Shown here: one piece after another, positions 27,754 to 64,000 of the stretch
Position numbering within the stretch: the stretch's first letter is position 1
Layout of the letters: each line of letters starts with the position of its first letter
Source: Pseudomonadota bacterium
GTDB lineage: Bacteria > Pseudomonadota > Alphaproteobacteria > Dongiales > Dongiaceae
Assembly: GCA_016183985.1 (NCBI GenBank)
Contig: JACPDN010000006.1
Span: 1 to 64,000 of the forward strand
Direction: 5' to 3'
Length of the DNA stretch: 64,000 nt
Made by a program: the position numbers and the translations under genes
The notes under the pieces: model-generated
Told to the model about the DNA's origin: nothing
What the model saw: only the letters and a program-made list of their open reading frames with translations
Database searches by the model: none

Positions 27754-28479
27754 TCAGAACTCGGTTACGAGTTGCGAGACGCGGGCGTGATCGGCGGGGA
27801 AGTCGACTTCGCCCCAGAGGCTGCCTTCGATGCTGCAGGTTTCGACCTGATGATGCTCGGCGATCTGGCCGATGGCCCGCAGATACCACCACTTCACGCC
27901 TTCCGGCGTGTACATCAAATTCTCGAGCGTGTCGGTGAAGAGCTTCGGGCCATCGCCGCGGAAGAGCAGCATGCCGATCGATTCACCGTTGGTGCGCTCT
28001 GGTGCCAGCGTCTTGCCGATCTCGAGCAGGCGCGTGCCCTTCAAATGCACCTTCATGTCGTCGGAGTCATAGGACTCCTTCTTGTCGATGGTAACGGTGA
28101 TGGGCGCTGCCGGACTTGCCATCAGCTTCTGGAAGATCTTCGGCTCGATGACCGTGTCGCCGTTGAGGATGACAAAATCTTGGCCCATCTCGTGCCGCGC
28201 CATCCAGCAGGAGGCGAGATTGTCGGCGAGCTTGTAGAAGGGGTTGTAGATCGTGCGGATCTTGAGCTTCGGGCTTTCCAGCTTCTTCAGCAGCGCCACC
28301 ACGTCCTGGGCGTGATAGCCGACGACGACGGCGATGTCGTCGACGCCGCCTTGGGTCAGCGCCCAGATCTGCCATTCGATCAGCGTCTTATCGCCGAGCT
28401 GCAGCAAGCATTTCGGCCGACCCTCGGTCAGCGGCAACAATCGCGAACCCTGGCCCGCGCTCAAGATGACGGCCTTCAT
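27754..28479 (-). CDS. LicC-like nucleotidyltransferase (probable phosphocholine cytidylyltransferase)
   Basis: A 241-residue nucleotidyltransferase. The N-terminal nucleotide-binding signature is SAGQGSRLLPLTEGRPKCLL. The segment YNPFYKLADNLASCWMAR recalls the phosphocholine/phosphonate cytidylyltransferases LicC and PntC, and ILNGDTVIEP carries a metal-binding aspartate. These enzymes make CDP-choline or related CDP-alcohols from CTP. GGAG precedes the ATG. It stands alone on this strand but lies 3-5 kb from a choline-kinase-like gene, so the two could supply consecutive steps. Substrate is inferred. Confidence 0.75.
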   Translation of the reverse strand: MKAVILSAGQGSRLLPLTEGRPKCLLQLGDKTLIEWQIWALTQGGVDDIAVVVGYHAQDVVALLKKLESPKLKIRTIYNPFYKLADNLASCWMARHEMGQDFVILNGDTVIEPKIFQKLMASPAAPITVTIDKKESYDSDDMKVHLKGTRLLEIGKTLAPERTNGESIGMLLFRGDGPKLFTDTLENLMYTPEGVKWWYLRAIGQIAEHHQVETCSIEGSLWGEVDFPADHARVSQLVTEF

Positions 28480-29643: not shown

Positions 29644-29863
29644 AATTCCAGCCCTTCTCCTGCCTTGTCCCTGCCGGGTACAAACCCGGCAAAATCGACC
29701 ACTCCGCTCAGGAGTTAGCGCCATCCCACTCGATTCCAGCAAGCCTATACGTGAAATAGTTAACGAGATATCAAAGGGATAGCTGTTTGCCAGATCGTTA
29801 AATCAAGATGGCACAAGGTATGCTTACTTAAGGCCAAGAAGGTCTCAAACCGGATTGCCAATC

Positions 29864-30299: not shown

Positions 30300-31565
30300 T
30301 TAGAGCGGCAGCACGCCACCTTCCTGCATGACCGTCACCTTCAACGCCTCGTCGCCACCGGAAATGCCATAGACCGGAATGGCCGGCAGGCTGTTGTAAA
30401 CGAAGGGGGTCGAGAAGTAATAGGCGGCGGTATCATGCAGCATGACGAAATCGCCGGGCTCCAACAGCGGCAAAGGTCGGCCATGCGCCACCACGTCGCC
30501 GGCAAAACAGCACGGGCCAGCGACATCCTGAATGACTTTCAAGCCTGATTTCGGCCGCGCGTTGGCGTCCAAGGCCGAGACGCGGATCTTCCACATTTCC
30601 GGCATGAAGACCGTGCGGGTCGCCACTTGCGCACCGGCATGGGTAATGGCGATGGGACGCCCACCCTGCTCTTTGGTGTATTCGACGCGGGCCAGGATGA
30701 AACCGGCCTTGGCCAACACCGAGCGGCCGAACTCGGTGATGACGCGGAACTCGCCAGCAAAGAGATCCGGTACCTCCTTGCGCAAGGCAGCGACATAGTC
30801 ACCGAAGCGCGGCGTCACATCCTCGCTGGCGAAATTCACCGGCAGGCCGCCGCCGATATCGAGGGTCGTAATTTGCTTGGCGCCTAGGCGCTGGTTGATC
30901 TCGCGTGCCAGATTGAAGGTCTTGGCGATGCCGGCGGCGATGAGATCGAGCGGGCAGCCTTGCGAACCGACATGCGTATGCAGCGCCGTCAGCCAGGGCC
31001 GCGTCGCATAGGCGTCAAAAATACGTTGTCGGTTGTCACCATCCTCAAGACCGATACCGAATTTTGAACTTTGCGTCGCCGTGCTCATGGCAGCAATGGA
31101 GCCGCCGCCCACCTGCGGATTGACCCGCAAGCCGATGATCGATGCCGACTTCTTCTTGCCAAGCCAGGCATCGACGCGGGCAAGTTCCTGGAAGTTGTCG
31201 ATGTTGAGCGTCGCCCCATGACTGAGCGCCGCATCGATCTCCCAATTGGTCTTCGCCGGACTGTCGAACACGATCTCGCCGCCAACGAAACCCGCCTTCA
31301 CTGCAGCTTGGTATTCACCAGGGCTCGCCACCTCGCAAGCCATGCCCCATTTGCGCACGAGGTCGAGGACCGTCGGCATGGTATTGGCCTTGGCCGCAAA
31401 GGCATGGGTGAAGAAATTGGGAAAGCTGGAGCGCAGATCGTTGATGGTCGCACGAAGTGCGTCGGTATCAATCACGCCGATCAGCGGTGCGTCTTCGACC
31501 AGCAAGCCGTCCTGGAAGGCGCGCGCTGCAATCGCGGCCTTGCGCGGCGAAACGGTATCGTCCAT
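30300..31565 (-). CDS. Fold-type III PLP-dependent decarboxylase (ornithine/diaminopimelate decarboxylase-like)
   Basis: A 421-residue alanine-racemase-fold decarboxylase. PLP lysine K59 is in HAFAAKANT. HVGSQG and the phosphate loop DIGGGLPV follow, then EFGRS. The C-terminal beta-domain carries CFAGD, matching the C-x3-D pair that completes the partner's active site, and YYFSTPFVYNSLP. It lies last in the leftward run behind the kinase gene, with a 105-nt gap. The amino-acid substrate cannot be determined. Location in a quaternary-amine type cluster is unusual for LysA or ODC, so it may act on an N-modified amino acid. Confidence 0.8.
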   Translation of the reverse strand: MDDTVSPRKAAIAARAFQDGLLVEDAPLIGVIDTDALRATINDLRSSFPNFFTHAFAAKANTMPTVLDLVRKWGMACEVASPGEYQAAVKAGFVGGEIVFDSPAKTNWEIDAALSHGATLNIDNFQELARVDAWLGKKKSASIIGLRVNPQVGGGSIAAMSTATQSSKFGIGLEDGDNRQRIFDAYATRPWLTALHTHVGSQGCPLDLIAAGIAKTFNLAREINQRLGAKQITTLDIGGGLPVNFASEDVTPRFGDYVAALRKEVPDLFAGEFRVITEFGRSVLAKAGFILARVEYTKEQGGRPIAITHAGAQVATRTVFMPEMWKIRVSALDANARPKSGLKVIQDVAGPCCFAGDVVAHGRPLPLLEPGDFVMLHDTAAYYFSTPFVYNSLPAIPVYGISGGDEALKVTVMQEGGVLPL

Positions 31566-31670
31566 CCCAACTATCCCTGAAAGCGCGAACACAGGGCGTC
31601 ATAAAGACGGGAAGGAGCCAAGAAAGACAAGACTATTGACGTAATCTCTGCCCTGCAGCGCGGGCATGCC

Positions 31671-32594
31671 TTAGCCGTCAATCACAGCCTGCATGTGCTT
31701 TCCGAAATCCGCCTGCCCCATCAGACGTTTACAACGCTCGAAGCGGTTCACGGCATAGGCCCAGAAATCATCTGCCGGGTTCTGGTTCACATGCTGGATG
31801 ATACCCCAGAGTGTCCACAACAGATCGCACATGGCCTTGTAGAGGACCATGCGGCCGCGATCGGCAGGTAGAGCCTTGCCGCCAAAATAGGCCTCGAGAA
31901 GTGCTTCGTCCTGCTCCGGCCCGAAGGCCGCCTCGACAGAAACGTCACCCAGATCCCACATGGGATCGTTATTGCCGGCATATTCCCAGTCGATGACATG
32001 GACGACCCTGCCGGTATCGAGGAAATTCTCCGCCAGCGGATCACAATGGCAGGGGACGTTCGGCAAAGGCCGCTTGCCAAGTGCTGCTCGCACGCTCTCA
32101 GCCTCGCGCTTCACATCATGATAGCCGTCGGGCAGCGGTGCCGACTTCTTTTCGAGGAACCCGAGATAGTCGTCGATCATCTGGAACAACTCGAACCGGT
32201 TGAGGAACTGCCGGCCGCTGTCGTGCACCTTGCGCAAGGCTTCGGCCGAACGCCGGACGGAGCCTAGATCCTTAAAGCGCTCGACATTCATCGTCACGGC
32301 ACCATCGATGAAACCCGCGAGCTGAACGCCATCTGCCTCGTCAAAGAAGATCAACGGCGCATTGACCCCGATATCGGAGGTGACACGCGCCGCATGTGCC
32401 TCATTCTTGCGCGAGATATATTCACTCGTCCCCTCGCCAGGAATGCGCAGGACAAATTTGCCCTTGGGCGTTCCAAGCAGGTAATTGCGGTTGGTGAGGC
32501 CCCCCAGCCGCTCGGCATTCACGTCGCTGACGCCAAGGCCCGCCAGAAGCGGAATCCGCTGCATCGCATCCTGGATGATCTTCTCGTCCTGCAT
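31671..32594 (-). CDS. Choline-kinase-like phosphotransferase (APH fold), copy 1
   Basis: A 307-residue aminoglycoside-phosphotransferase-fold kinase of the choline/ethanolamine kinase group. The N-lobe has GGLTNRNYLL and FVLRIPGEGTSEYI. The catalytic loop is HCDPLAENF (H183, D185, N190) and the metal-binding aspartate D202 is in VIDWEYAGNNDP. The start is 12 nt after the DAO-GcvT gene, implying co-expression. With the LicC-like gene it could form phosphocholine-type intermediates, or it could phosphorylate another amino alcohol. A second copy of the same pairing is at 63387-64000. Confidence 0.8.
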   Translation of the reverse strand: MQDEKIIQDAMQRIPLLAGLGVSDVNAERLGGLTNRNYLLGTPKGKFVLRIPGEGTSEYISRKNEAHAARVTSDIGVNAPLIFFDEADGVQLAGFIDGAVTMNVERFKDLGSVRRSAEALRKVHDSGRQFLNRFELFQMIDDYLGFLEKKSAPLPDGYHDVKREAESVRAALGKRPLPNVPCHCDPLAENFLDTGRVVHVIDWEYAGNNDPMWDLGDVSVEAAFGPEQDEALLEAYFGGKALPADRGRMVLYKAMCDLLWTLWGIIQHVNQNPADDFWAYAVNRFERCKRLMGQADFGKHMQAVIDG

Positions 32595-32606
32595 GAATAC
32601 CCCCTT

Positions 32607-35027
32607 CTAGGCCTTCAATCGCTCGTTTTTGGGATCATAGAGCGGCCCGTCATGCCGCGTCGCCGGCGATTGCTCGGTGAATGCTTCCACCGTGAAGTTC
32701 TGCGCCATACTAAGCTCGATCGGCAAATAGGCATAGGCGACCGACTTACCTAAGGTGTAGCTGAAATTGCCGCTGGTCGTGACACCAACGACCTTGCCGT
32801 CATGGATCACCGCCTCACCGCCATAAAGCGGCAAAGGCTTCTCTAGCACGAAGGTGCAGAGCTTCTGCTTGACGCCAGCCTCCTTCTGCTTTGCCAGCAC
32901 ATCGCGGCCGATGAAATCGCCCTTCTTCAGATTGACGCGGAAGCCGAGGCCGGCCTCATAGGGCGAATAATCCGGCGTGATATCGGACGACCAGTAAAGA
33001 TATCCCTTCTCCATGCGCAGGGAATCGATCGCCCGGTAGCCGATATCGACGATGCCATGCTTCTCCCCCGCGCCGCGCAAGGTTTCGTAGACATGCGCCG
33101 CGTATTCCGTCGGCACATGCAATTCCCAGCCCAGCTCGCCGACATAGCCAATGCGGATCGCAAGGACCGGCGCCGCGCCCACGGTGAGGCGGCGGCAGGT
33201 CGAGAACGGAAAGGCGGCATTCGAAATATCTTCTTCCGTCACCGCCGCCAGGACGTCGCGCGACTTCGGGCCGCAAATATTGATCACGGCACGGGCCGAG
33301 GTCATGTCCACGATCTGAGCCGACCCGTCGCGCGGCAAGTGACTTTCGATCCATTGCTTGTCGTGAAGGCCAAAGGCGCTGCCGGTCACAAAATAGAAAC
33401 GGTCCTCGCCAATGCGCGAGAAGGTGAGATCGCATTCGATCCCGCCCTTCGGGTTGCAAAGCTGGGTATAGATCGTGCTGCCGACCGGCTTGTTCATATC
33501 GGAAACGGCAAGTTTCTGCAGCGCCGCCAGCGCACCCGACCCGACGACCTCATACTTGGCGAAAGACGTCTGGTCGATCAGCGCCACGCCGCCGCGCACC
33601 TGTTTGTGCTCGGCGCCTACGTGAGTGAACCAATTCGTCTTGGCCCGGTCGAAGGCCGGCTCATCCACCGCCTTCACACCGGCCGGGGCGAACCAGTTCG
33701 GCCGCTCCCAGCCACCGCGCGAGCCAAAGACGGCGCCGCGCGCTTTCAACGTTTCATAGAGTGGCGAGCGGCGGATACCACGCATGGTCTCGTGCTCATC
33801 GCCCGGCCGATGCAGTTTGTAATGATCGCCGTAGAGCTCGACCGCGCGCGGATACATGAAATGGCGCGTATTGTGGTGGAAGTTGAACCGGCGAACATCC
33901 AGCGGCCACAGATTAAGGCTGGGGGCGCCGTCGACAATCCACTCGGCCATCATGCGACCGGCACCACCGCCGGCGGCAATGCCATAGAGGAAGCCAGCCG
34001 AGACAAAGAAATTATCGAGTTCCGGCGCCTTGCCCATGACGAAATCGGAATCCGCCGAGTAAGGGATCGGGCCGTTAATCAGCTCACGAACACCGACAGT
34101 GTTGATGATCGGCGTGCGCTTGCCGCCGAGCTTGGCCAGCATCTCAAAGCGTTCGAAATTACCGGGGAGCAATTCCTGGGCGAAATGCTTTGGTATGCCG
34201 CCGGGCGCAAACGGTAGCGTATCGGGCTCGTAGCCGCCGATAACGAGGCCGCGCACCTCCGGCTTGTAGTAGACCAAGTGATCCGGATCGCGCATGGTCG
34301 GCATCTTCTTCGGCACGTCCGGCAGTGGATCGGTAATGAGATACTGATGCTCGACGGCGAAGCTCGGAATACGCACGCCAGCGAGTTCGCCCACCTCGTG
34401 GCCCCACATGCCGGCGCAATTGACGACGGTATCGGCGGTCCATTCACCTTTATCAGTCTTCACGCCAGTGACGCGGCGATTTTCGACCGTCATGCCAGTG
34501 ACCCGCTCGCCAATGATGATGCGGGCACCCTTGTCCTTGGCGCCTTTGGCCAGCGCCTGGCAGACGCCGGCCGGATCGATATAGCCGTCGGACGGGATGT
34601 AGACGGCCGAGCGCACGTCCTCCGTGCTCATGATCGGGAAGAGATCCTGCGCCTCCTTCGGCGACAGCTCCTGCATTTCCAGACCGAAACTTTTCGCCAT
34701 CGTGAGCGAGCGCTTATTTTCCATCTCCCGCTCAGTCGAGCAGGCAAGACGCAGGCTGCCGTATTTCTTCCAATCGATCGCCATGCCGGTCTCGGCTTCG
34801 AGCTTGTCGTAGAGCTCGACCGAATGGCGCAGCATGCGCGTCACGTTGCGCGACGAGCGCAGCTGCCCCACCAAGCCTGCAGCATGCCAGGTGGCACCAT
34901 GGGTGATCCCGCTCTTTTCCAGGATCACGACATCCTTCTTCCCCATGCGCGTCAGGTGATAGGCGATCGAGCAACCGATGATGCCGGCACCGATGATCAG
35001 AATTTCCGCGTGTTGACGCCCGCTCAT
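32607..35027 (-). CDS. Dimethylglycine/sarcosine dehydrogenase-like flavoenzyme (DAO-GcvT fusion), copy 1
   Basis: An 806-residue bifunctional enzyme. The N-terminal D-amino-acid-oxidase (FAD) domain has the dinucleotide motif IIGAGIIGCS and the THGATWHAAGL segment whose histidine (H48) corresponds to the covalent-FAD histidine of mammalian DMGDH. The C-terminal half is a GcvT-like aminomethyltransferase (RIGYVGELGWELHVP, YRAIDSLRMEKGY) that passes the removed one-carbon unit to tetrahydrofolate. The reaction class is oxidative N-demethylation of a methylated amine. It is flanked by a DeoR regulator and the choline-kinase-like gene. The paralogue at 60917-63376 shares all motifs. Confidence 0.88.
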   Translation of the reverse strand: MSGRQHAEILIIGAGIIGCSIAYHLTRMGKKDVVILEKSGITHGATWHAAGLVGQLRSSRNVTRMLRHSVELYDKLEAETGMAIDWKKYGSLRLACSTEREMENKRSLTMAKSFGLEMQELSPKEAQDLFPIMSTEDVRSAVYIPSDGYIDPAGVCQALAKGAKDKGARIIIGERVTGMTVENRRVTGVKTDKGEWTADTVVNCAGMWGHEVGELAGVRIPSFAVEHQYLITDPLPDVPKKMPTMRDPDHLVYYKPEVRGLVIGGYEPDTLPFAPGGIPKHFAQELLPGNFERFEMLAKLGGKRTPIINTVGVRELINGPIPYSADSDFVMGKAPELDNFFVSAGFLYGIAAGGGAGRMMAEWIVDGAPSLNLWPLDVRRFNFHHNTRHFMYPRAVELYGDHYKLHRPGDEHETMRGIRRSPLYETLKARGAVFGSRGGWERPNWFAPAGVKAVDEPAFDRAKTNWFTHVGAEHKQVRGGVALIDQTSFAKYEVVGSGALAALQKLAVSDMNKPVGSTIYTQLCNPKGGIECDLTFSRIGEDRFYFVTGSAFGLHDKQWIESHLPRDGSAQIVDMTSARAVINICGPKSRDVLAAVTEEDISNAAFPFSTCRRLTVGAAPVLAIRIGYVGELGWELHVPTEYAAHVYETLRGAGEKHGIVDIGYRAIDSLRMEKGYLYWSSDITPDYSPYEAGLGFRVNLKKGDFIGRDVLAKQKEAGVKQKLCTFVLEKPLPLYGGEAVIHDGKVVGVTTSGNFSYTLGKSVAYAYLPIELSMAQNFTVEAFTEQSPATRHDGPLYDPKNERLKA

Positions 35028-35071
35028 CGTCTCTCAAGGCTCCGTGATGATATGGAAATGATTTCGGGGGA

Positions 35072-35872
35072 TTAGGCGGTCGGTTCAACGACCAGCACTT
35101 CGACGTCGTGCCGCTCAAGCTCGTCGCCGAGTTCGCCAGCCGGCTTCTGGTCGGTGATCAGGAGATCGACGACATCGAAACCAACAGCCGCCACCAGGCA
35201 GCGGCGACCAAATTTCGTGTGATCTGCCCCGACGATCATGCGCTCGGTATGACCGATCAGCGAGCGCGATACGTCGGCCTCACACAAATGATCGTCCATG
35301 ACACCCAGATTCGCGTCGAGCCCGGAGGCGCTGATGATTGCCGTCTTCACCATGAATTGCTGTAGGAAGAGAATGGCCGCAGGGCCGAAGGCCGCGCTGT
35401 CATCGGCACGCAATTCGCCACCCGCCAGGTAGACCTTGTTCCCCTGCCCCGTGCTGAGCTGTTGGGCAATCGGCGCCGAATTGGTGACGACGGTGAGATT
35501 TCGCCGGCCCTTGAGCGCCTGCGCGACATAGGTGTTGGTCGAGCCCGTATCCAGGAAGACCGATTCACCGTCGCTGATCTCGTTGGCAATGGCGGCGGCA
35601 ATGGCCTGTTTCGCCGCCATGTTGTCCAGCATGCGCCGCTGCAGCGGCTGGTCGTCGCTGCGGTCGCGCCAGCGCACATTGCCATGGCTCTTTTCGACGA
35701 GGCCCTTGGCGGACAAGAGGCGCAGATCGCGCCTGATGGTCTCGCCAGAGACATCCAGCGCCTCGGCCAGCTGCGTCACGGCCAATAGCTGATCACGCCG
35801 CAACACTTCCATGATGCGCGCCTGCCGGTTGTTGAGCCGGAGATCGGTGAGGACTTCGAGGTCTTTTGCCAT
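35072..35872 (-). CDS. DeoR/GlpR-family transcriptional regulator
   Basis: A 266-residue repressor-type regulator. The N-terminal winged helix (RQARIMEVLRRDQLLAVTQLAEALDVSGETIRRDLRLL in pattern) ends with the TIRRDL signature. The C-terminal DeoRC sugar-phosphate-sensing domain has ANEISDGESVFLDTGST, VVTNSAPIA and GGELRADD. The start at 35872 (MAKDLEVL) avoids an unneeded extension overlapping the permease gene. It sits inside the transporter/flavoenzyme run, 13 nt after the permease, so autoregulation and control of the whole run are expected. DeoR effectors are usually phosphorylated compounds, which fits the neighbouring kinase. Confidence 0.9.
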   Translation of the reverse strand: MAKDLEVLTDLRLNNRQARIMEVLRRDQLLAVTQLAEALDVSGETIRRDLRLLSAKGLVEKSHGNVRWRDRSDDQPLQRRMLDNMAAKQAIAAAIANEISDGESVFLDTGSTNTYVAQALKGRRNLTVVTNSAPIAQQLSTGQGNKVYLAGGELRADDSAAFGPAAILFLQQFMVKTAIISASGLDANLGVMDDHLCEADVSRSLIGHTERMIVGADHTKFGRRCLVAAVGFDVVDLLITDQKPAGELGDELERHDVEVLVVEPTA

Positions 35873-35885
35873 GATGAACCTGCGC

Positions 35886-37871
35886 CTAATGCTGGGCGTT
35901 GATATCGAGAAGGCCGAGCCGCTCACGAGCCCGCTTGGCTCCAGCGGCAGCTAGCCGATCTAAAACGATGCCAAGGAAAGCGACACATAGGCCCGCAACA
36001 ATGCCGCGCCCTGGGTCGGCCTTGGTGAGCGCAATATAGACTTCTTGGCCAAGATCACGGGTTCCTACCAAAGCGGTGATCACCAACATGCTAAGCGACA
36101 GGAGGATGACCTGATTGATGCCGAGCATGATTTCGGGCAAGGCCAAGGGCACCTGGACACGCCACAAAATCTGTCGCGGAGTGGATCCCATGGCACGGGC
36201 GGCCTCGACCACCTGCGGCGATACATTGCGCAGGCCATGTGCGGTGTAGCGAATGGCTGGTGTAACAGCAAAGGACACGATCGCAATCATGGCAGTCACG
36301 TCACCAACGCGGAAGAGCATGACCACGGGGATGAGATAGACGAAGGTCGGCAGCGTCTGCAGCGTATCCACCGCAATTGTGGCGACACGATTGCCCCAAT
36401 CGCTACGTGACGCCCAAGCACCGATCGGAATACCGATGAGTGCGGCAATCACGGCCGAGATGGCGCAAAGATACACCGAGATCATTGCCTTTTCCCACTG
36501 GCCCGCGATGAGGATGAAGGCGACGAGGAGGGCAACGAGTAGCGCCAGCCTACGGCCACCGAGCTGATAGCCTGCCAAGACAAGCCCGCCTAGAATCGCA
36601 ATCCACGGTGCCATCAGCAAACCTTGCTTTACAGGGTTCATCACATTGAGCAGCAGCCAGGTACGAATTGCCTCAATCAAATCGAAGAAATTGATGTTGA
36701 TCCACTTCACGATCTCATTGAGGGAATCGCCCAGCGTCAATGTGAGAGACTTGGGAACATCCGAGAACTCTGGCACGAACAGGCTGATCAATGTCGTCAC
36801 CGCCAGCCAGCCGATTCCCGCGATCAGATATGGATGCCGATGTGCAAACGTATCGCCAGATTTGAATGGCCGTGCCTGATGCTCGGCCGCCGCCTGGCTG
36901 ATGCGGTCGAGACTGATTGCGATCGCTACAATTGCAAGACCGGCCACGGCACCACGGCCGATATCACCTTGCCGCAAAGCCAGGAGCACATCATAACCAA
37001 GACCGCCCGCACCGATCATGGAGGCAATGATGACCATGTTGAGTGTCATCATGATAACCTGATTGACACCGACCATCAGCAGCGCACGAGAGCTAGGAAT
37101 CATGATCCGCCACGTCTTCTGCTGCGGCGAGCACCCGGCCATCTTGCCGAAATCCATGACTTCTTCCGGTACGGAGCGCAACGCAAGAACGGTTGCCCGC
37201 ACCATTGGCGGCGATGCGAAGATAACTGTCGCCACCAGCGCCGGTACGGGGCCTGAGCCGAAAAGCAGCAATACAGGCACAAGATAGGCAAAAGACGGCA
37301 TGGTCTGCATCAGATCAAGCGACGGCTGCACGACCCAGGTGGCGAGGCGCGGATGCCGAAATGCCAAAATGCCAAAGCCGAGCCCGAGAGCAACCGCGAT
37401 CGGCACACAAACGATGACCGATGCCAGGGTGAGCATTGCGCCATTCCATTGCCCGAAGAAAGCAATGTATGTGAAACAGAGAAAGACGGTGGCTGCCGTT
37501 CGCAGGCCACCATAGGCGTAACCGGTAAGCGTCATTGCGCCGATCACACCGAGCCACGACACCCGCGGCACGATGACGGCGTCATTGGGTGCGAGAATGC
37601 CCTTGGCCAGCACTGCAATCGCGGTATCGAGCGGCATATCAAGTACGGCTGCAAGCCCACGCGTGAGAAACTGAATGTGAGCGACCAGCCATTTCGCCGC
37701 GATACCGATCCATTTGGCCAGATTGATCTCAAGCTTGTCGGGATATTTTACGAGCCAGATCAACGGATCGCGCAGCAGCCATATGGCGACGACAGCGACC
37801 AGAAACCCCAGCCAGATCAGTGGCCAGGGCGAGCGCCGCTCCAGAGGGGCTGTTGCGGCGTCGGTGCTCAT
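35886..37871 (-). CDS. Glycine-betaine/proline-type ABC permease, two permease domains fused
   Basis: A 661-residue membrane protein made of two ProW-type permease units in tandem (about residues 60-330 and 390-655). Each unit carries its own EAA-like loop, seen as FGKMAGCSPQQKTWRIMIP in the first and ARAMGSTPRQILWRVQVP in the second. About 14-16 helices are expected. The transporter would therefore be a permease 'heterodimer' in one chain rather than the usual ProW homodimer. It overlaps the ATPase gene by 4 bp, and DeoR follows after 13 nt. Substrates of the family are quaternary ammonium compounds. Confidence 0.88.
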   Translation of the reverse strand: MSTDAATAPLERRSPWPLIWLGFLVAVVAIWLLRDPLIWLVKYPDKLEINLAKWIGIAAKWLVAHIQFLTRGLAAVLDMPLDTAIAVLAKGILAPNDAVIVPRVSWLGVIGAMTLTGYAYGGLRTAATVFLCFTYIAFFGQWNGAMLTLASVIVCVPIAVALGLGFGILAFRHPRLATWVVQPSLDLMQTMPSFAYLVPVLLLFGSGPVPALVATVIFASPPMVRATVLALRSVPEEVMDFGKMAGCSPQQKTWRIMIPSSRALLMVGVNQVIMMTLNMVIIASMIGAGGLGYDVLLALRQGDIGRGAVAGLAIVAIAISLDRISQAAAEHQARPFKSGDTFAHRHPYLIAGIGWLAVTTLISLFVPEFSDVPKSLTLTLGDSLNEIVKWININFFDLIEAIRTWLLLNVMNPVKQGLLMAPWIAILGGLVLAGYQLGGRRLALLVALLVAFILIAGQWEKAMISVYLCAISAVIAALIGIPIGAWASRSDWGNRVATIAVDTLQTLPTFVYLIPVVMLFRVGDVTAMIAIVSFAVTPAIRYTAHGLRNVSPQVVEAARAMGSTPRQILWRVQVPLALPEIMLGINQVILLSLSMLVITALVGTRDLGQEVYIALTKADPGRGIVAGLCVAFLGIVLDRLAAAGAKRARERLGLLDINAQH

Positions 37872-38956
37872 CGCCGGGTTCCGCGTTCCAGCAGAATATC
37901 GAGCACCGATTGCGGCGTGATCTCACCCACCACCCTGCTGCCATCGCGCACGACAAAAGCTTGGCCGGCGCCAATCACGCGCGGTGCAATATCGACGATC
38001 TTGTCACGCGCATTGACTTCGCCAGCAACGGCGCCGCCGCTACGGGGCCGCATGATACGCGCGGCACTTACGACTTTGGCGCGGTCGACATCGCCGGTGA
38101 ATTCAGCGACATAGTCAGTTGCCGGGTTGAGCACCAGATCTTCAGGTGTCCCCAACTGCACGACAGCGCCGTCCTTCATGATGGCGATGCGGTCGGCGAG
38201 GCGGATGGCCTCGTCAAAATCATGGGTCACGAAGACGATTGTCTTCTTCAGCACGCTTTGCAGGCGTTGCAATTCGGCCTGCATTTCGCGTCGGATCAGC
38301 GGATCGAGTGCAGAGAACGGTTCGTCGAGGAACCAGAGTTCTGGATTGGCCGCAAGCGATCGGGCAATGCCGACGCGCTGCTGCTGGCCACCCGAAAGTT
38401 GCCGCGGAAAGCTGAGCTCCTTGCCCTTGAGGCCGACGAGCTCCAATACCTCCCTCGCGCGCCGCTGGCGCTCGCTCTTTCCCACCTTCTGCAGCGACAA
38501 CGGAAAAGCCACATTGTCGATAACGGTGAGATGCGGCAGCAAGGCAAAGTGCTGGAACACCATACCCATCTTGTGGCGGCGGATATCTATGAGCTGCGCT
38601 GGGTTGGCGTCGAGCAGGTTTTGCCCCTCGAACATCACCGCACCGGCACTGGGCTCGATGAGACGTGAGAGACAGCGCAGCAAGGTCGACTTGCCAGATC
38701 CGGACAAACCCATGAGCACGAAGATCTCGCCTTCGCGCACATCGATGGTCACATCGCGAACGGCCGCCATCTGGCCCCGCGCGCCAAGCTCGGCCGCCGT
38801 CAGGTTCGTGAGATCGGCCGCATCGAATTTCCGATCAGCATTGGCGCCGAACAGCTTCCACACATTCCGGCAGGAGAGCTTTACGCCACGCAGGCCAGCC
38901 CCATTCAACTCCTGCGCAACGCTCGGCGCGTCCATTGGCGCTTCACCCTGCCCCAT
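37868..38956 (-). CDS. Glycine-betaine/proline-type ABC transporter ATP-binding protein (ProV-like)
   Basis: A 362-residue ATPase. Walker A is GLSGSGKST, the Q-loop VFQHFALLPH, signature LSGGQQQRVGIARSLA, Walker B LWFLDEPFSALD and the switch histidine in FVTHDFDEA. The N-terminal ~60 residues and the C-terminal ~80 (MRPRSGGAVAGEV to VLDILLERG) resemble the ProV/OpuAA accessory region. The start has AAGGG upstream. It lies between the binding protein and permease genes, separated from the former by a strong intercistronic hairpin. Confidence 0.92.
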   Translation of the reverse strand: MGQGEAPMDAPSVAQELNGAGLRGVKLSCRNVWKLFGANADRKFDAADLTNLTAAELGARGQMAAVRDVTIDVREGEIFVLMGLSGSGKSTLLRCLSRLIEPSAGAVMFEGQNLLDANPAQLIDIRRHKMGMVFQHFALLPHLTVIDNVAFPLSLQKVGKSERQRRAREVLELVGLKGKELSFPRQLSGGQQQRVGIARSLAANPELWFLDEPFSALDPLIRREMQAELQRLQSVLKKTIVFVTHDFDEAIRLADRIAIMKDGAVVQLGTPEDLVLNPATDYVAEFTGDVDRAKVVSAARIMRPRSGGAVAGEVNARDKIVDIAPRVIGAGQAFVVRDGSRVVGEITPQSVLDILLERGTRR

Positions 38957-38965
38957 TGCGACCCT

Positions 38966-39009
38966 TGAGAAAGAAATGGCCGGGCCGCCAGTCTATGACG
39001 GCCCGGCCA
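38966..39009 (-). terminator. Intercistronic hairpin with T-rich tail between binding protein and ATPase genes
   Basis: TGGCCGGGCCG (38977-38987) pairs perfectly with CGGCCCGGCCA (38999-39009), an 11-bp GC stem with 11-nt loop. On the coding strand it is followed by TTTCTTTCTC. It probably acts as a partial terminator or RNA-stabilising element that keeps binding-protein mRNA in excess. Confidence 0.75.
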
Positions 39010-39025
39010 GTTAGGGAATCGGGCC

Positions 39026-39988
39026 TTACTGAGCCCACTGCTTAATCTTGTCTCCGTTGGCGGCGATCCAGGCATCCGCCACGTCATCTAGCGATTTCTT
39101 GTCGAGATCGACCTGGCCGATGAGCGCGTTCATCTCATCGTCGGTGAACTTCATGTTCTTGGCGATCTTATGCGCCACCGGCCACTTCTCGGCGAAGCCC
39201 TTCCACGAGTACTTATAGATCTCGCCATGCGGCTTGCCGCAATCATAGGCCTTGTCCGGGTTCGAGCCCCAGGCCGGATCGCTGTAGCATTCGGGCGTCC
39301 ATTCCGGGAATTGCACCCATTCGCCCTTATATTTCGCCGGCGCCCAATGCGGTGTGTAAATCCACAAGATAATCGGCGCCTTGCGTTGATAAGCGGATTC
39401 AAGCTCGGCGAACATTGCGGCGTCGGTCCCCGCATGCACCACTTCGAACGGCAGATCGAGCGCTTCGACACGCTCATCATCGAAGCCACCCCAGGTCACC
39501 GGACCACCGAGATAGCGCCCCTTCGGCGCTGTTTCGGGGGTCGAGAAGGCCTCGGCGCAGCCCTTCAACGCTTCCCAATTAGGCAGGCCCGGGCACGTTT
39601 CCTTCATGTATTCGGGGAACCACCACTCTTCTTTCGCTTTGGGCCCAATCGGCCCGAGATTCTCGGTTTCGCCGCTGGCATCGGCATCGGCCATCGCTTC
39701 GCGAGCCGTCGTGTCCCAATATTCCATACCAATGGTGAGATCGCCGGTCCGCAGGCCCGTCTGGATGCTCGCGAGATAATCCGAGGTCACCAGCTCAGTA
39801 TTGTAGCCATAGGATTTCAGGATCTTTGACAGGATGGTCGCGTTCAGATTGACGCTGGTCCAGTCAAACAGAGCGATCTTGATCGGATCGGTGCTTTCCG
39901 GCTCCGCCGCGGCGGGCATCGAAAATCCGGCGCCGAGGGCCAAAGCCATGGCGGCACCCATCGCCTTGCGGCGGAAGGTCATCGTCAT
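39026..39988 (-). CDS. Glycine-betaine-type ABC transporter substrate-binding protein (OpuAC/ProX-like)
   Basis: A 320-residue periplasmic binding protein. The signal peptide ends at MPAAAEP. The OpuAC fold is indicated by IKIALFDWTSVNLNATI, GYNTELVTSDYLASIQ and IGMEYWDTT, and by aromatic residues (FDWTS, EYWD, VTWGGFDD) of the kind that form a Trp/Tyr cage around quaternary ammonium groups. Several cysteines (TCPG, KGCAEAF, PECYSD, YDCGKP) may form disulfides, as in betaine/choline binders. GGGAG lies 7 nt before the ATG. It is the first gene of the leftward run, behind a likely promoter. The exact ligand is unknown. Confidence 0.9.
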   Translation of the reverse strand: MTMTFRRKAMGAAMALALGAGFSMPAAAEPESTDPIKIALFDWTSVNLNATILSKILKSYGYNTELVTSDYLASIQTGLRTGDLTIGMEYWDTTAREAMADADASGETENLGPIGPKAKEEWWFPEYMKETCPGLPNWEALKGCAEAFSTPETAPKGRYLGGPVTWGGFDDERVEALDLPFEVVHAGTDAAMFAELESAYQRKAPIILWIYTPHWAPAKYKGEWVQFPEWTPECYSDPAWGSNPDKAYDCGKPHGEIYKYSWKGFAEKWPVAHKIAKNMKFTDDEMNALIGQVDLDKKSLDDVADAWIAANGDKIKQWAQ

Positions 39989-40080: not shown

Positions 40081-40135
40081 GCCAATTGTGCGAATTTCGT
40101 GGAAACGATGTTGATTTGACCGTGCGGTTCAAACG

Positions 40136-60916: not shown

Positions 60917-63376
60917 TTAAACCTTCACCCGCTCCATCTTTGGGTCATAGAGCGGCTGCAGACAGACTTTCGCCGGATAGCGCTGGCAGGCGATTTCCAA
61001 CTCGTACGTGCCGCTCAGCACGTCCTCGGCACTGACGCCGTTCTGCGGATCGCGCACATAGCCGATGCCGATATTGGTGCCGAGCGTATAGCCATAGCCG
61101 CCTGAAGCGAGCCAACCCACCTGCTTGCCATTGCGAAAAATAGTTTCGCGGCCAAGCAGTACGACACTCTGGTCATCCACAGTGAAGCAGGCCAACAACT
61201 TGGGCAGCTTCTTTTGCGACAGAGCGGTAAGAGCGTCGCGCCCAAGGAACGGCACATTTTTCTTCAGCTTCACAGCCCAGCCCATTCCGGCCTCAAGCGG
61301 TGAATGATCCGGTGTGATATCCGACGACCAGGCGCGATAGAACTTCTCCAATCGCAGACTTTCGATCGCCCGGTAGCCGGCATTGGCAATGCCATGCTTG
61401 GCGCCAGCCGCCCAGAGCGCATCATAAACGGCAGCCATCGCTTCGACCGGGATATGCAGCTCCCAGCCCAGCTCGCCAACATATGTCACGCGCAGTGCTC
61501 GGACGATGGCGCCGGCAATGGCAATCTCCTGCGCCGTGCCGAAGGGGAACGCGGCGTTCGATACATCCTGTGGCGTCACGGCAGCCAGCACATCACGTGC
61601 CTTCGGCCCCATCAAGGACAGGACGCCATAGCCCGACGTAACATCCACGAGGCGCGCATCCAGGCCTGCTGGAATATGTGACGAGATCCAGTGGAAATCA
61701 TGCGTCGCATAGCCGGTGCCAGTGACGATGTAATAGGCGTCGTCCGCCACACGCGTAACGGTGAGATCGCATTCGATGCCGCCGCGCTGGTTCAGCATCT
61801 GGGTATAGATGATGCTGCCGGGCCTCTTCGCAACGTCATTGCTGGCGATCCAGGTCAACGCAGCTTCTGCATCCCGCCCAACGAGCATGAATTTTGCAAA
61901 AGATGTCTGATCGATGAGCACAACACGCTCGCGCGCTGCCTTGTGCTCATTGCCGACGTGGTCGAACCAGTTCTGCCGCTCGTAGGAATAGGCATCCTTC
62001 GGCTGGACATCTTTGGGTGCGAACCAATTCGGCCGCTCCCAGCCGAGCTTCCAGCCAAAGACGGCGCCCTGCTCCTTGAGCTTGGCGTAAAGCGGAGAGA
62101 CCCGGACCGGGCGCACGCTCTCCAGTTCCTCATGCGGCCAAGCCATCGAATAATGATGGGCATAGGCTTCGAGCGTACGCGTGAGCACCCAATTCTTGTC
62201 GCGATGTACCTGGCCAAAACGACGGATATCGACCGGCCAAAGATCCATCGGCGGCTCGCCGCCAGCAACCCATTCGGCGAGCGCGCGCCCTGCTCCACCA
62301 CCGGACGCAATGCCGAAGGCATTGAAGCCGGCACCGACGAAGAAGTTCCGCACCTCGGGCGCTTCACCGAGGATGAAATTTCCGTCCGGCGTGAAGCTTT
62401 CCGGTCCGTTGATCATCTGCTTGACACCGGCGTTCTCCAGCGCCGGAACACGGGCCAGCGCCTGCTCCATCAACTGGCCGAAATGATCCCAGTCATTCTC
62501 GAGCAGTTGGAAGGCGAAATTGCCAGGCAGCGCAAAACGATCCGTGCCCGGAAGCCAAGGGATCGGGTTATGCTCGTAACCGCCCATAACAAGGCCACCG
62601 ACTTCTTCCTTGAAGTAGATGAGGCGGTCTGGATCCCGCAGCGTCGGTAGGTTTTTGGGCACCCCAGCCATTGCCTCGGTGACAATGTACTGATGCTGCA
62701 CGGATTGCAGCGGAACGTTCACCCCAGCCAGGGCCCCGATCTCACGCGCCCATTGGCCGCCGCAATTGACAATGACGTCGGCGGCGATGCGCCCCTTGTC
62801 GGTTTGGACGGCAACGGCCCTGCCCTTCACCACTTCAATACCGGTGACGGCCGTCTCCTCAACGATCTTCACGCCATTTTGACGGGCACCCTTGGCGAGC
62901 GATTGAGCGATGTCGGCGGGATTGGCTTGGCCGTCGGTAGGCAGGAAGGCAGCTCCGACAAGATCGCCAATATCCATGATCGGCCACAGATCTTGCGCTT
63001 CCTTGGGCGTCAGCAGGTGCATCTCCAGGCCAAAGGAATGCGCCGTGGTCGCCTGACGCTCGATTTCGGTCATGCGGGCCTTGTTGCACGCCAAGCGCAG
63101 GCCGCCATTCATCTTCCAACCCGTGGCCAAGCCGGTCTCAGTTTCCAGCTTGTTGTAAAGCTCAACCGAGTACTTCAAAAGCTGTGTGATGTTGGCCGAC
63201 GTGCGCAACTGCCCGACCAGACCCGCTGCGTGCCAAGTCGATCCGCTTGTTAGCTTGTGGCGCTCGACCAGCACCACATCCTTCCAGCCAAGCTTGGCCA
63301 GATGATAGGCCGTCGAGCAGCCGATGATACCGCCGCCAATGATGACCGCACGGGCGGAGGTCGGAAAATCGCTCAT
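60917..63376 (-). CDS. Dimethylglycine/sarcosine dehydrogenase-like flavoenzyme (DAO-GcvT fusion), copy 2
   Basis: An 819-residue paralogue of the 32607-35027 product. The FAD motif VIIGGGIIGCS and covalent-flavin region TSGSTWHAAGL (H49) open the DAO domain. The C-terminal GcvT-like folate domain has VTYVGELGWELHIP, YRAIESLRLEKFY and the terminal LYDPKMERVKV, against LYDPKNERLKA in copy 1. AAGGAG precedes the ATG. It follows a choline-kinase-like gene by 10 nt. Oxidative demethylation with transfer of the one-carbon unit to folate is inferred; the two copies differ enough to have different substrates. Confidence 0.88.
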   Translation of the reverse strand: MSDFPTSARAVIIGGGIIGCSTAYHLAKLGWKDVVLVERHKLTSGSTWHAAGLVGQLRTSANITQLLKYSVELYNKLETETGLATGWKMNGGLRLACNKARMTEIERQATTAHSFGLEMHLLTPKEAQDLWPIMDIGDLVGAAFLPTDGQANPADIAQSLAKGARQNGVKIVEETAVTGIEVVKGRAVAVQTDKGRIAADVIVNCGGQWAREIGALAGVNVPLQSVQHQYIVTEAMAGVPKNLPTLRDPDRLIYFKEEVGGLVMGGYEHNPIPWLPGTDRFALPGNFAFQLLENDWDHFGQLMEQALARVPALENAGVKQMINGPESFTPDGNFILGEAPEVRNFFVGAGFNAFGIASGGGAGRALAEWVAGGEPPMDLWPVDIRRFGQVHRDKNWVLTRTLEAYAHHYSMAWPHEELESVRPVRVSPLYAKLKEQGAVFGWKLGWERPNWFAPKDVQPKDAYSYERQNWFDHVGNEHKAARERVVLIDQTSFAKFMLVGRDAEAALTWIASNDVAKRPGSIIYTQMLNQRGGIECDLTVTRVADDAYYIVTGTGYATHDFHWISSHIPAGLDARLVDVTSGYGVLSLMGPKARDVLAAVTPQDVSNAAFPFGTAQEIAIAGAIVRALRVTYVGELGWELHIPVEAMAAVYDALWAAGAKHGIANAGYRAIESLRLEKFYRAWSSDITPDHSPLEAGMGWAVKLKKNVPFLGRDALTALSQKKLPKLLACFTVDDQSVVLLGRETIFRNGKQVGWLASGGYGYTLGTNIGIGYVRDPQNGVSAEDVLSGTYELEIACQRYPAKVCLQPLYDPKMERVKV

Positions 63377-63386
63377 AGGTAACTCC

Positions 63387-64000
63387 TTACATATTCCGGA
63401 ACGCACCGAGTGCGCGCTCGAAACGCGCGGCATTCTCGGCGGTGTAGGCGGCGTAATCGAAATCCAGAGTCGAGTGGATTTCGGAAATCATGCTCCACAT
63501 GGTCTCGCGCAGGAGCGAGGCACATTTCATGGCGTGGTAGCGGCGCAAAAGATCAGTATCGGCATTGCGTTCAAAATAAGCTTCGAGCAGCCACTTCTCG
63601 TCGACCTCCGCTACCTCATTGTTTGAACAGAGATTGGCGAGATCGAAGAGCGGCGAGTTGAAGCCGGCATAATCCCAATCGATCAGCCACAGGCGATCTC
63701 CGCTGTCGATAAAGTTGGTCGGCAGCAAATCATTGTGGCCATAAACGATCTCGACCGGGCCGACGGCTTTTTCCAGTTCAGCTGCGATATCGAGCAAGCG
63801 CGGTAAAACTGCCAGATGACGACTATTCCCCGCCCTCAGGGAGTGGCCATAGTCACGCAGGACATGAAAGACCCAGAAAATCAGGGCGGGTCCCGTGACA
63901 TGCAGCGGCATCTCGCGATGACATTTGCGCATCAACGGTAGAATACGGGCCAGCATGTCCGGCTGCCGCACGTCCTCGGCAGAGAGTGTTTTACCGTCGA
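63387..64000 (-). CDS. Choline-kinase-like phosphotransferase, copy 2 (5' end beyond window)
   Basis: The C-terminal ~204 residues of an APH-fold kinase; the frame continues open through base 64000. The catalytic loop is VYGHNDLLPTNF and the metal aspartate is in LIDWDYAGFNSP, followed by FDLANLCSNNE as in the choline/ethanolamine kinase group. The stop is 10 nt before the DAO-GcvT start on the same strand, so they are co-transcribed. Gene order (kinase first) is opposite to copy 1 (flavoenzyme first). Confidence 0.8.
   Translation of the reverse strand, partial: DGKTLSAEDVRQPDMLARILPLMRKCHREMPLHVTGPALIFWVFHVLRDYGHSLRAGNSRHLAVLPRLLDIAAELEKAVGPVEIVYGHNDLLPTNFIDSGDRLWLIDWDYAGFNSPLFDLANLCSNNEVAEVDEKWLLEAYFERNADTDLLRRYHAMKCASLLRETMWSMISEIHSTLDFDYAAYTAENAARFERALGAFRNM

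Follow-up and report, generated by a model that had tools for sequence, protein, structure and literature searches.

A recurrent alphaproteobacterial gene set that may serve import, O-phosphorylation and N-demethylation of small N-methylated amino-alcohols

The window, by which we mean the whole stretch of 64,000 nucleotides analyzed here, comes from a Dongia-like alphaproteobacterium and carries a run of seven (-) strand genes for a binding protein (SBP), an ATPase (ATP), a permease (PERM), a DeoR regulator (DEOR), a flavoenzyme (DAO_A), a kinase (KIN_A), and a decarboxylase (DEC). All seven genes described in the initial annotation were recovered at the same coordinates, and profile and domain matches agreed with the family that it had given to each ORF. 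The reported gaps were also reproduced (13 nt between permease and DeoR with the given start at 35872, 44 nt between DeoR and flavoenzyme, and 12 nt between flavoenzyme and kinase). The ATPase and permease ORFs overlap by 4 nt, and DEC is the loosest member of the run, lying 78 nt behind KIN_A, or 105 nt when counted from its later start at 31565. While this inventory of the run was correct, it had overlooked that the window encodes a further flavoenzyme and kinase (DAO_B and KIN_B), a pair which starts 21 kb from the operon start and 26 kb from DAO_A; KIN_B extends past the window end. A single promoter for all seven genes, as had been proposed, was not borne out: the sigma-70 scan of the region gave one site against a shuffle mean of 3.9, that is, below chance, and a hairpin followed by T's between SBP and ATP may reduce read-through there. 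Terminator-like sites in the region, scored by consensus scan only, numbered 14 against a shuffle mean of 10.3.

Table 1 Features of the two transcription units and their surroundings.
Feature	Coordinates	Strand	Remarks
LicC-like nucleotidyltransferase	27754..28479	(-)	Conserved synteny in Dongia
DEC, PLP decarboxylase, Orn/DAP/Arg family	30300..31592	(-)	Codon-based start 31565 likely
KIN_A, APH/choline-kinase-family kinase	31671..32594	(-)	LicA choline-site residues kept, V178 to Leu
DAO_A, FAD oxidoreductase + GcvT folate domain	32607..35027	(-)	Dimethylglycine-dehydrogenase architecture
DEOR, DeoR/GlpR-family regulator	35072..35872	(-)	ORF opens at 35926; codon-based start 35872
PERM, two fused ProW/ChoW-type BPD permease domains, 661 aa	35886..37871	(-)	TIGR03416 above cut-off in two stretches
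ATP, ProV/ChoV-type ABC ATPase	37868..38956	(-)	TIGR01186 above cut-off
Hairpin, 14 bp, then T's, between SBP and ATP	38977..39009	(-)	Consensus scan
SBP, periplasmic binding protein, OpuAC family	39026..39988	(-)	4xz6, TMAO-binding TmoX, is the nearest relative of solved structure
AATCAACATCG element upstream of SBP	40106..40116	(-)	Matching element upstream of KIN_B
DAO_B, second DAO-GcvT	60917..63376	(-)	Sister clade of DAO_A, 49-51% identical
KIN_B, second choline-kinase-family kinase	63387..64000, on to G000:C13:64262	(-)	Trp251 to Glu, Glu213 to Asn

To compare loci, ORFs were taken from codon-based calling and a tblastn census, replacing longest-ORF calling, which produced many antisense artefacts. 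The census covers 71 KIN_A loci from distinct genomes and leaves out L054 (38% identity), L050, L051, and the duplicates L004, L083, L084, and L085; genomes G836 and G862, whose KIN_A matches lie at contig ends, are outside the set. In 45 of the 71 loci, KIN_A and DAO_A were same-strand neighbours, a number that includes L153, where the DAO_A match is a contig-edge fragment; this adjacency indicates that the pairing of kinase and flavoenzyme is not due to chance. SBP, ATP, and PERM lay within 10 kb of KIN_A in 43/71, KIN_B and DAO_B within 12 kb in 40/71, and DeoR was present in 45/71. KIN_B adjoined DAO_B in 38 of the 41 loci having both, and two DAO-GcvT genes are kept alongside two kinases in distant families. 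The kinase withstands the refutation test set in the initial annotation, since several families of alphaproteobacteria keep it together with the flavoenzyme, transporter, and DeoR; the gene set occurs in the Dongia group as well as on Rhizobiaceae and roseobacter plasmids. Ten plasmid records carry KIN_A, and six of them were compared; on a Rhizobium rosettiformans plasmid the genes form a single run (DeoR, then SBP-ATPase-permease-KIN_B-DAO_B-DAO_A-KIN_A), whereas here and in three further Dongia genomes the system is divided between two units ca. 20 kb apart. A possible kinase/oxidase fusion in L062 (genome G178), where an open frame of 988 codons runs from within DAO_A to the end of KIN_A, has a stop near the DAO_A start and is not counted as evidence. 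Gene content, linkage, co-conservation, paralog pairing, and the residue patterns described below are the observations on which our interpretation builds. Two of them count against the pathway proposed below: no DAO_A, DAO_B, or DAOx gene lies within 10 kb of KIN_A in 5/71 loci, and DAO_B stands without KIN_B in eight loci (among them L147, which ends at a contig edge), so KIN_B is dispensable.

Choline-kinase-family enzymes phosphorylate varied alcohols, and the two kinases differ in the residues that would hold the substrate. PMC4364537 gives the LicA choline site as T29, D176, Y197, E213, W251, W254, and Y268. These residues, together with N181 and D194, were identical in 74/74 full-length KIN_A members (76 before removal of L051 and L054), while the position of LicA V178 was Leu in 73 and Met in one. 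By its residues KIN_A matches the choline site of LicA and may phosphorylate choline, whereas W251 and Y268 are missing from two related kinases encoded next to transporters of the thiamine type. A close relative of KIN_A is 3dxq of Mesorhizobium loti (350 bits), a protein named by family only. In KIN_B, E213 is replaced by Asn and W251 by Glu in 43/43 members, Leu stands at V178 in all 43 and Ser at T29 in 25, and the other choline-site residues are kept. Its choline cage is not intact, so we class KIN_B as a choline-family kinase and not as a choline kinase; since one cage Trp became Glu, its substrate is probably a less methylated N-H amine.

The substrate site of TmoX consists of W55, W102, F106, E131, W177, F220, and W222 (PMC8918994). 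W55, W102, E131, and W177 (four of the seven) were kept in 41/41 SBP sequences, F106 was lost in all 41 (30 Gly, 10 Ala, 1 His), and F220 was Trp and W222 Tyr in 40/41. On these residues SBP is TmoX-like but is not TmoX, and the loss of F106 with the two replacements suggests a roomier pocket. An amino acid had been suggested as one possible substrate; it is disfavored because KIN_A keeps the LicA choline site and SBP most of the TMAO-type cage. The remainder of the scheme in the initial annotation is supported at the level of prediction: a methylated cationic amine would be taken up, phosphorylated, and demethylated onto folate, with DeoR sensing a phosphorylated compound. We propose, as a reading whose chances we judge to be even, that the genes serve to break down small N-methylated amino-alcohols, with N,N-dimethylethanolamine and N-methylethanolamine as the likeliest substrates. 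The cage of KIN_A would fit choline equally well, which counts against this proposal.

The decarboxylase bears on another substrate. The same order of import, phosphorylation, and demethylation might act on a hydroxy-amino-acid betaine, a carnitine-like compound, or an N-methyl amino acid, from which Dongia DEC would remove the carboxylate after demethylation. This is rather unlikely, even though DEC is contiguous with KIN_A in six of the seven Dongia members and the kinase family accepts varied alcohols. DEC also has Phe (GPCCFAGD) for the acidic residue of the family C-E/D motif (after the motif Cys), so it is probably neither a diaminopimelate nor an ornithine decarboxylase. As LysA it scored 209.5 bits, below the TIGR01048 cut-off of 297.9, and a clear LysA (464.3 bits) is encoded elsewhere; a third LysA-like gene of the genome lies at the cut-off (296.9 bits, 298.7 with neighbours). 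On the other side, neither the KIN_A choline site (74/74) nor the TmoX-type cage of SBP suits a carboxylate, and since PLP chemistry requires a free primary alpha-amine, no amino acid that is methylated at the alpha-nitrogen can be a substrate of DEC. DEC was present in only 6/71 KIN_A loci, all Dongia, and absent from the examined stretch in 65/71; it occurred in 4/289 genomes of the class, all Dongia, and, in the named collection, in three Dongia records and one MAG titled Rhodospirillaceae. Decarboxylation as a core step, as initially envisaged, thus fails co-conservation outside this narrow group. DEC is accessory, and its having no place in our scheme counts against the proposal.

DAO_A has the domain order DAO + FAO_M + GCV_T + GCV_T_C, as in the dimethylglycine dehydrogenase family, whose members carry out oxidative N-demethylation onto folate; a flavin amine oxidase cannot directly demethylate choline. 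In the alignment, FAD-domain residues H48 and H227 were present in 46/46 DAO_A and 50/50 DAO_B rows (the latter include one gene twice, from the window and L050), and DAO_A and DAO_B form their own sister clades in the tree. R57, K87, and R106 are common to both and absent from seven comparison paralogs. Several details count against reading these residues as support for our proposal: they are 3 of 13 columns that separate DAO_A and DAO_B from the paralogs, six of the seven paralogs have His at K87 and one has His at R106, and human dimethylglycine dehydrogenase aligns His at R57. The residue after Tyr253, which we take to be catalytic in dimethylglycine oxidase, also varies (34 Y and 12 L in DAO_A, 36 F and 14 Y in DAO_B), again to the disadvantage of the proposal. 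A predicted structure of the DAO_A FAD domain (four sequences) was set aside at a mean pLDDT of 46.3.

Known DAO-GcvT enzymes use unphosphorylated substrates, and the cage Glu of KIN_B suits an amine with N-H. Both points would fit the reverse order, in which DAO_A and DAO_B work on the unphosphorylated amino-alcohol, and products that have lost some or all of their methyls are then phosphorylated by the kinases to serve as lipid head groups or for storage. We regard this order as distinctly unlikely: a full methylammonium cage in KIN_A would be pointless for a demethylated product, and DAO_A and DAO_B share new basic residues. There is also a precedent for phosphorylation first, as the MthK/MthB system of Eubacterium limosum can demethylate choline onto folate only once it has been phosphorylated (PMC12155760).

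In loci without DAO_A, KIN_A adjoined a divergent methyltransferase gene (MT1) in 22/71, 20 of these within 300 bp, a same-strand MT2 in two, and a DAO-only oxidase in two; these labels were chosen post hoc. DAO_A and MT1 occurred together in 0 of 71 loci, and the 22 loci having MT1 instead count against our proposal. MT1 matched the phospholipid methyltransferase PmtA weakly (25.7 bits to 8ys9 versus 76 bits to METTL27), and this assignment was rejected. One MT2, in L066, is related to phosphoethanolamine methyltransferases among other methyltransferases. The methyltransferases beside KIN_A (24/71 loci) would fit a CDP-choline-type anabolic route, comprising choline/ethanolamine uptake, the kinases, and a LicC-like cytidylyltransferase, with the DAO-GcvT enzymes handling only a side product. 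A LicC-like gene does lie 1.8 kb beyond DEC; its best solved relative is 1jyk (CTP:phosphocholine cytidylyltransferase, 63 bits), and a link to a phosphocholine-type product is possible. However, among 38 loci tested it was found in Dongia loci only, and the gene most often paired directly with KIN_A is DAO_A. With the two DAO-GcvT genes kept beside two kinases in distant families, this makes the anabolic route very doubtful.

A further reading, which we consider unlikely, is an aerobic route in which choline-series amines are dismantled wholly as phosphate esters: KIN_A would form phosphocholine, one of the MttB-superfamily proteins of the genome would take the first methyl from the quaternary nitrogen, and DAO_A and DAO_B would pass the second and third onto folate to give phosphoethanolamine. 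Genome G000 has six MttB-superfamily genes elsewhere, and none was found among 10 proteins scanned in or near the first unit. EutB-type ethanolamine ammonia-lyase was absent in 17/17 genomes of the order, which rules it out as a downstream step and counts against the proposed amino-alcohol catabolism.

The element upstream of SBP matches one upstream of KIN_B (G000:C13:64338-64348). The exact pattern AATCAACATYG, picked post hoc after comparing both promoters, has five copies in 4.65 Mb, these two among them. With one mismatch allowed there was no enrichment (3 vs 2.42 expected in the window, 1 vs 0.68 in L050). The element is a candidate operator common to both transcription units.

For the proposed amino-alcohol pathway, we infer the substrate, step order, inducer, and end product from the genes and active-site residues. 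The TmoX-like ABC system would import the methylated amine, whose hydroxyl KIN_A, with its choline-type cage, and KIN_B, probably acting on the N-H form, would phosphorylate. The phosphate would trap the amine and supply the anionic group needed by a dimethylglycine-dehydrogenase-type enzyme. DAO_A and DAO_B would then oxidize the N-methyls singly, the GcvT domain passing each to tetrahydrofolate, to leave O-phosphoethanolamine. Accumulating phosphorylated amine would cause DeoR to derepress the genes. In the four genomes with a split system, one operator may serve both units, and the group-specific DEC is appended. The specific prediction of this scheme is that the phosphate ester is formed first and demethylation follows. 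If true, it would explain how dimethyl- and methyl-ethanolamine are metabolized, suggest a likely role for 3dxq, and give a function to a gene set carrying family-level annotations only in the plasmid records examined ('FAD-dependent oxidoreductase', 'choline/ethanolamine kinase' or 'phosphotransferase' family). It would also provide, with flavin and folate, a counterpart to the cobalamin-based demethylase of phosphocholine that was described in 2025. The all-phosphate-ester route, if true, would be the reverse of phosphobase methylation, equipped with an importer of its own and with DeoR as the sensor of phosphorylated amines.

The initial annotation knew of no described pathway with this combination, and none was found among the matches listed from openly licensed PMC literature (titles and abstract openings), the nearest being PMC12155760. 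The set, recurrent in alphaproteobacteria, is apparently undescribed. SBP shares the binding-protein family and Trp55, Trp102, Glu131, and Trp177 with the TmoXWV TMAO transporter (4xz6; PMC8918994), but differs at Phe106, Phe220, and Trp222. KIN_A shares the choline-site residues of LicA (4r77/4r78; PMC4364537) except V178, whereas KIN_B carries E213N and W251E; the genes sit here with N-demethylation, LicA with cell-wall phosphorylcholine. DAO_A and DAO_B resemble dimethylglycine dehydrogenase/oxidase (5l46, 4pab, 1pj5) in architecture and aligned H48 and H227, but form separate clades, carry R57/K87/R106, and are tied to kinases. Phosphobase methylation (phosphoethanolamine N-methyltransferases 5wp4/5wp5) would use the same phosphorylated methyl-ethanolamine intermediates, and in L066 the gene next to KIN_A encodes a related methyltransferase, but phosphobase methylation runs in the opposite direction, adding methyls. 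The E. limosum system (MthK/MthB/MthC/MthA; PMC12155760) is alike in that a choline-type kinase acts first, the phosphorylated amine is N-demethylated to tetrahydrofolate, and the kinase and demethylase genes are neighbours; here this order is inferred from the genes. In that anaerobic acetogen, a cobalamin-dependent MttB-superfamily enzyme converts quaternary phosphocholine to dimethylaminoethanol phosphate and stops there. In the present system, no MttB-superfamily corrinoid methyltransferase lies beside the kinase (10 proteins scanned, first unit), and the demethylases are two paralogous FAD/GcvT fusions, which need a tertiary or secondary amine and are accompanied by two kinases, a TmoX-like importer, and DeoR.

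The seven minus-strand open reading frames of the run were confirmed, with the families and the intergenic gaps of 13, 44, and 12 nt given in the initial annotation. They encode an OpuAC-type binding protein (SBP), an ATPase (ATP), a permease (PERM), a DeoR regulator, a flavoenzyme combining FAD oxidoreductase and GcvT (DAO_A), a choline-kinase-family kinase (KIN_A), and a PLP decarboxylase (DEC). A single promoter for the whole run, which had been thought likely, was not established, since matches in a sigma-70 scan of the region were below chance level and a hairpin-T site lies between the SBP and ATPase genes. Comparison by eye showed that a promoter-like stretch upstream of SBP (TTGRCTTGCGA...TGTGGMTAGA) was kept in the four Dongia genomes compared.

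Searching the genome with KIN_A revealed two further kinases. One of them, KIN_B, lies inside the same window next to a second DAO-GcvT gene, DAO_B, a pair that the initial annotation had overlooked. In the FastTree topology (46 DAO_A and 50 DAO_B rows, one gene being present twice), DAO_A and DAO_B formed sister clades apart from the other full-length DAO-GcvT paralogs of the genome. Three further Dongia genomes likewise have the DAO_B–KIN_B pair, at a distance of ca. 20 kb from the operon; in a fourth (G005, locus L053), all four enzymes occur together with no transporter nearby.

Features in the window and at other loci (L-numbers, fetched loci; G000, the genome containing the window).
Feature	Location	Strand	Remark
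LicC-like nucleotidyltransferase	window 27754-28479	-	nearest solved relative 1jyk, CTP:phosphocholine cytidylyltransferase LicC, 63 bits
Class II glutamine amidotransferase	window 28870-29742	-	207.3 bits vs EgtC cut-off 218.65
DAO_B	window 60917-63376		second DAO-GcvT gene
KIN_B	window 63387 to G000:C13:64262		directly next to DAO_B; runs past window end
Third choline-kinase-family gene	L051 5898-10342; G000:C13 about 1.145-1.149 Mb		beside ThiBPQ thiamine importer
MttB-superfamily gene	G000, C12:52471-53961		adjoins two DAO-GcvT paralogs
DAO_A–KIN_A fusion	L062 7203-10409 (G178)		one open frame, 988 codons; stop codon near DAO_A start
SBP-ATP-PERM-methyltransferase-KIN_A-HAD phosphatase run	L066 8796-18550		adjoins glucosylglycerol-phosphate synthase
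HisN/inositol-monophosphatase-like gene	L137 8825-9598	opposite to KIN_A	beside KIN_A
HisN/inositol-monophosphatase-like gene	L150 8798-9574	opposite to KIN_A	beside KIN_A

At E ≤ 1e-45, KIN_A was detected in 13 of 385 class genomes (five being genus members, including G000), 8 of 299 phylum genomes, and 12/87 and 33/151 genomes of two families. All 17 genomes of the order, which represent one family, matched at E ≤ 1e-30, G016 only at 39% identity. We then surveyed by tblastn the neighbourhoods of 71 KIN_A loci, one per genome. DAO_A was a same-strand neighbour within 300 bp in 45 loci. Its place was taken by a divergent class I methyltransferase (MT1) in 22 loci (at most 300 bp away in 20 of them and at most 1200 bp in the rest), and by a same-strand methyltransferase (MT2) or a DAO-only oxidase (DAOx) in two loci each, these partner labels having been chosen after inspection of the loci. 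DAO_A and MT1 occurred together in none of the 71. The transporter genes (SBP, ATP, and PERM) lay within 10 kb in at least 43 loci, KIN_B and DAO_B within 12 kb in at least 40, and DeoR nearby in at least 45, all lower bounds because contigs end. KIN_B and DAO_B were at most 100 bp apart in 38 of the 41 loci having both; DAO_B without KIN_B was seen in eight loci, including L147, which is cut by a contig end, and KIN_B without DAO_B in none. DAO_A, DAO_B, and DAOx were all absent within 10 kb in five loci (L061, L065, L066, L154, and L172), although in L065 KIN_A is followed 1.3 kb downstream by a further gene with a DAO domain. The L066 run would appear to methylate the phosphorylated amine, not to demethylate it. 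The HisN/inositol-monophosphatase-like neighbour, identified by scanning in L137 and L150 and shared by eye by L135 and L136, is possibly a small-molecule phosphatase of the system.

KIN_A was also present in 10 plasmid records, and neighbourhoods were obtained from six. The gene order of the Rhizobium rosettiformans plasmid, which carries the full run (DeoR | SBP-ATP-PERM-KIN_B-DAO_B-DAO_A-KIN_A), recurs in the unannotated record of Ciceribacter thiooxidans. Plasmids of Ruegeria sp. THAF33 and Rhodobacteraceae M382 carry DeoR beside DAO_A–KIN_A, that of Shinella sp. HZN7 has KIN_B–DAO_B behind the transporter with MT1/KIN_A further along, and that of Salipiger abyssi has a different, transporter-linked DAO-GcvT. 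These results indicate a conserved system that is undescribed as far as our literature searches show.

DEC had been regarded as part of this set, which the census did not bear out. It was found in 6 of 71 loci and 4 of 289 class genomes, all of the genus Dongia, and was absent from the fetched region of G005, also a Dongia genome. Among named records, the DEC query matched three Dongia and one MAG titled only Rhodospirillaceae, which marks G000 as Dongia-like (Dongiaceae, Dongiales). DEC is a lineage-specific accessory. Against the LysA model, whose cut-off is 297.9 bits, it reached 209.5, and other genes of the genome scored 464.3 bits in one case and 296.9 bits, or 298.7 with its neighbours, in another. 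In this family, the motif cysteine is followed by an acidic residue that touches the distal end of the substrate. At this position there is Phe in the four Dongia DEC sequences aligned; the motif reads CE in 2p3e and CD in two genome paralogs.

We mapped both kinases to the numbering of the choline kinase LicA through an alignment with 4r77, using the choline-site residues listed in PMC4364537. The 74 full-length KIN_A sequences, 68 of them from genome loci and six from plasmids, all matched LicA at T29, D176, Y197, E213, W251, W254, and Y268, and V178 was replaced by Leu in 73 and Met in one. Two related kinases lacking W251 and Y268 served as an internal control for the cage residues; one adjoins genes of the ThiBPQ thiamine importer (NCBIfam), and the other adjoins homologous transporter genes. 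The kinase at L051 is likely a thiamine kinase. KIN_B keeps Y197, W254, Y268, D176, N181, and D194, and has E213 replaced by Asn and W251 by Glu in 43/43 sequences. In KIN_B the acidic charge is shifted into the cage, which fits, but does not prove, an amine bearing N-H.

The nearest solved relative of SBP was 4xz6 (245 bits), identified in PMC8918994 as the TMAO-binding protein TmoX of Ruegeria pomeroyi. W55, W102, E131, and W177 were retained in 41/41 SBP sequences, F106 was Gly in 30, Ala in 10, and His in one, and F220 and W222 were replaced by Trp and Tyr, respectively, in 40/41. The Salipiger protein, which accompanies the different DAO-GcvT, was the exception at all three changed positions. 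SBP therefore has a more open pocket than TmoX, with the cage largely intact and the Glu that forms hydrogen bonds retained.

In the FAD domain, H48, H227, and Y253 were invariant in the DAO_A and DAO_B clades, and the residue after Y253 was variable. Thirteen columns conserved (≥93%) alike in both clades differed from seven comparison paralogs. Three are basic with non-matching paralog residues: R57 (A, S, or N; His aligned in human dimethylglycine dehydrogenase), K87 (His in six, Cys in one), and R106 (mixed, one His). K255, a fourth basic column, replaces Arg. R57, K87, and R106 are candidate phosphate-site residues; an AlphaFold model of the DAO_A FAD domain (four sequences) had a mean pLDDT of 46.3, and they could not be placed in it.

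The SBP start is preceded at a distance of 117 nt by AATCAACATCG, and KIN_B at 75 nt by AATCAACATTG. The exact pattern AATCAACATYG, picked post hoc from comparing these promoters, occurred five times in the 4.65-Mb genome and its reversed control once; with one mismatch allowed, it was not enriched (3 vs 2.42 expected in the window, 1 vs 0.68 in L050). The island AATCAACA was kept upstream of KIN_B in 4/4 Dongia genomes, and upstream of SBP, three had AATCAACA and one ATTCAACA. From these sequences we infer one regulator common to both units, DeoR being the obvious candidate.

The most economical reading, in which we infer all enzymology, is that an amine would be imported, O-phosphorylated, and then oxidatively N-demethylated onto folate, ending in phosphoethanolamine. 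The initial interpretation is partly supported: import, phosphorylation, and demethylation stand as a reading, and decarboxylation by DEC is not a core step. MT1 in place of DAO_A in 22 loci counts against this scheme, as does, for its endpoint, the failure to find EutB in any of the 17 genomes of the order. A CDP-choline reading is possible, though less likely, in Dongia, where the LicC-like gene near the operon is syntenically conserved. A glutamine amidotransferase just under the EgtC cut-off also lies near the operon in the window and in several other Dongia loci, and was not seen in L070. G000 has six MttB-superfamily methyltransferase genes (contigs C11, C12, C13, and C2), which make removal of the first methyl of choline conceivable, though they are unlinked to the operon.

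Phosphorylation before demethylation has a precedent in Eubacterium limosum, in which, according to PMC12155760, choline must be phosphorylated before demethylation, there cobalamin-dependent. The authors of that paper suggest that the alcohol, once phosphorylated, resembles the other substrates in being an acidic quaternary amine, an argument that, by analogy, would hold equally for an enzyme with its origin in dimethylglycine dehydrogenase.
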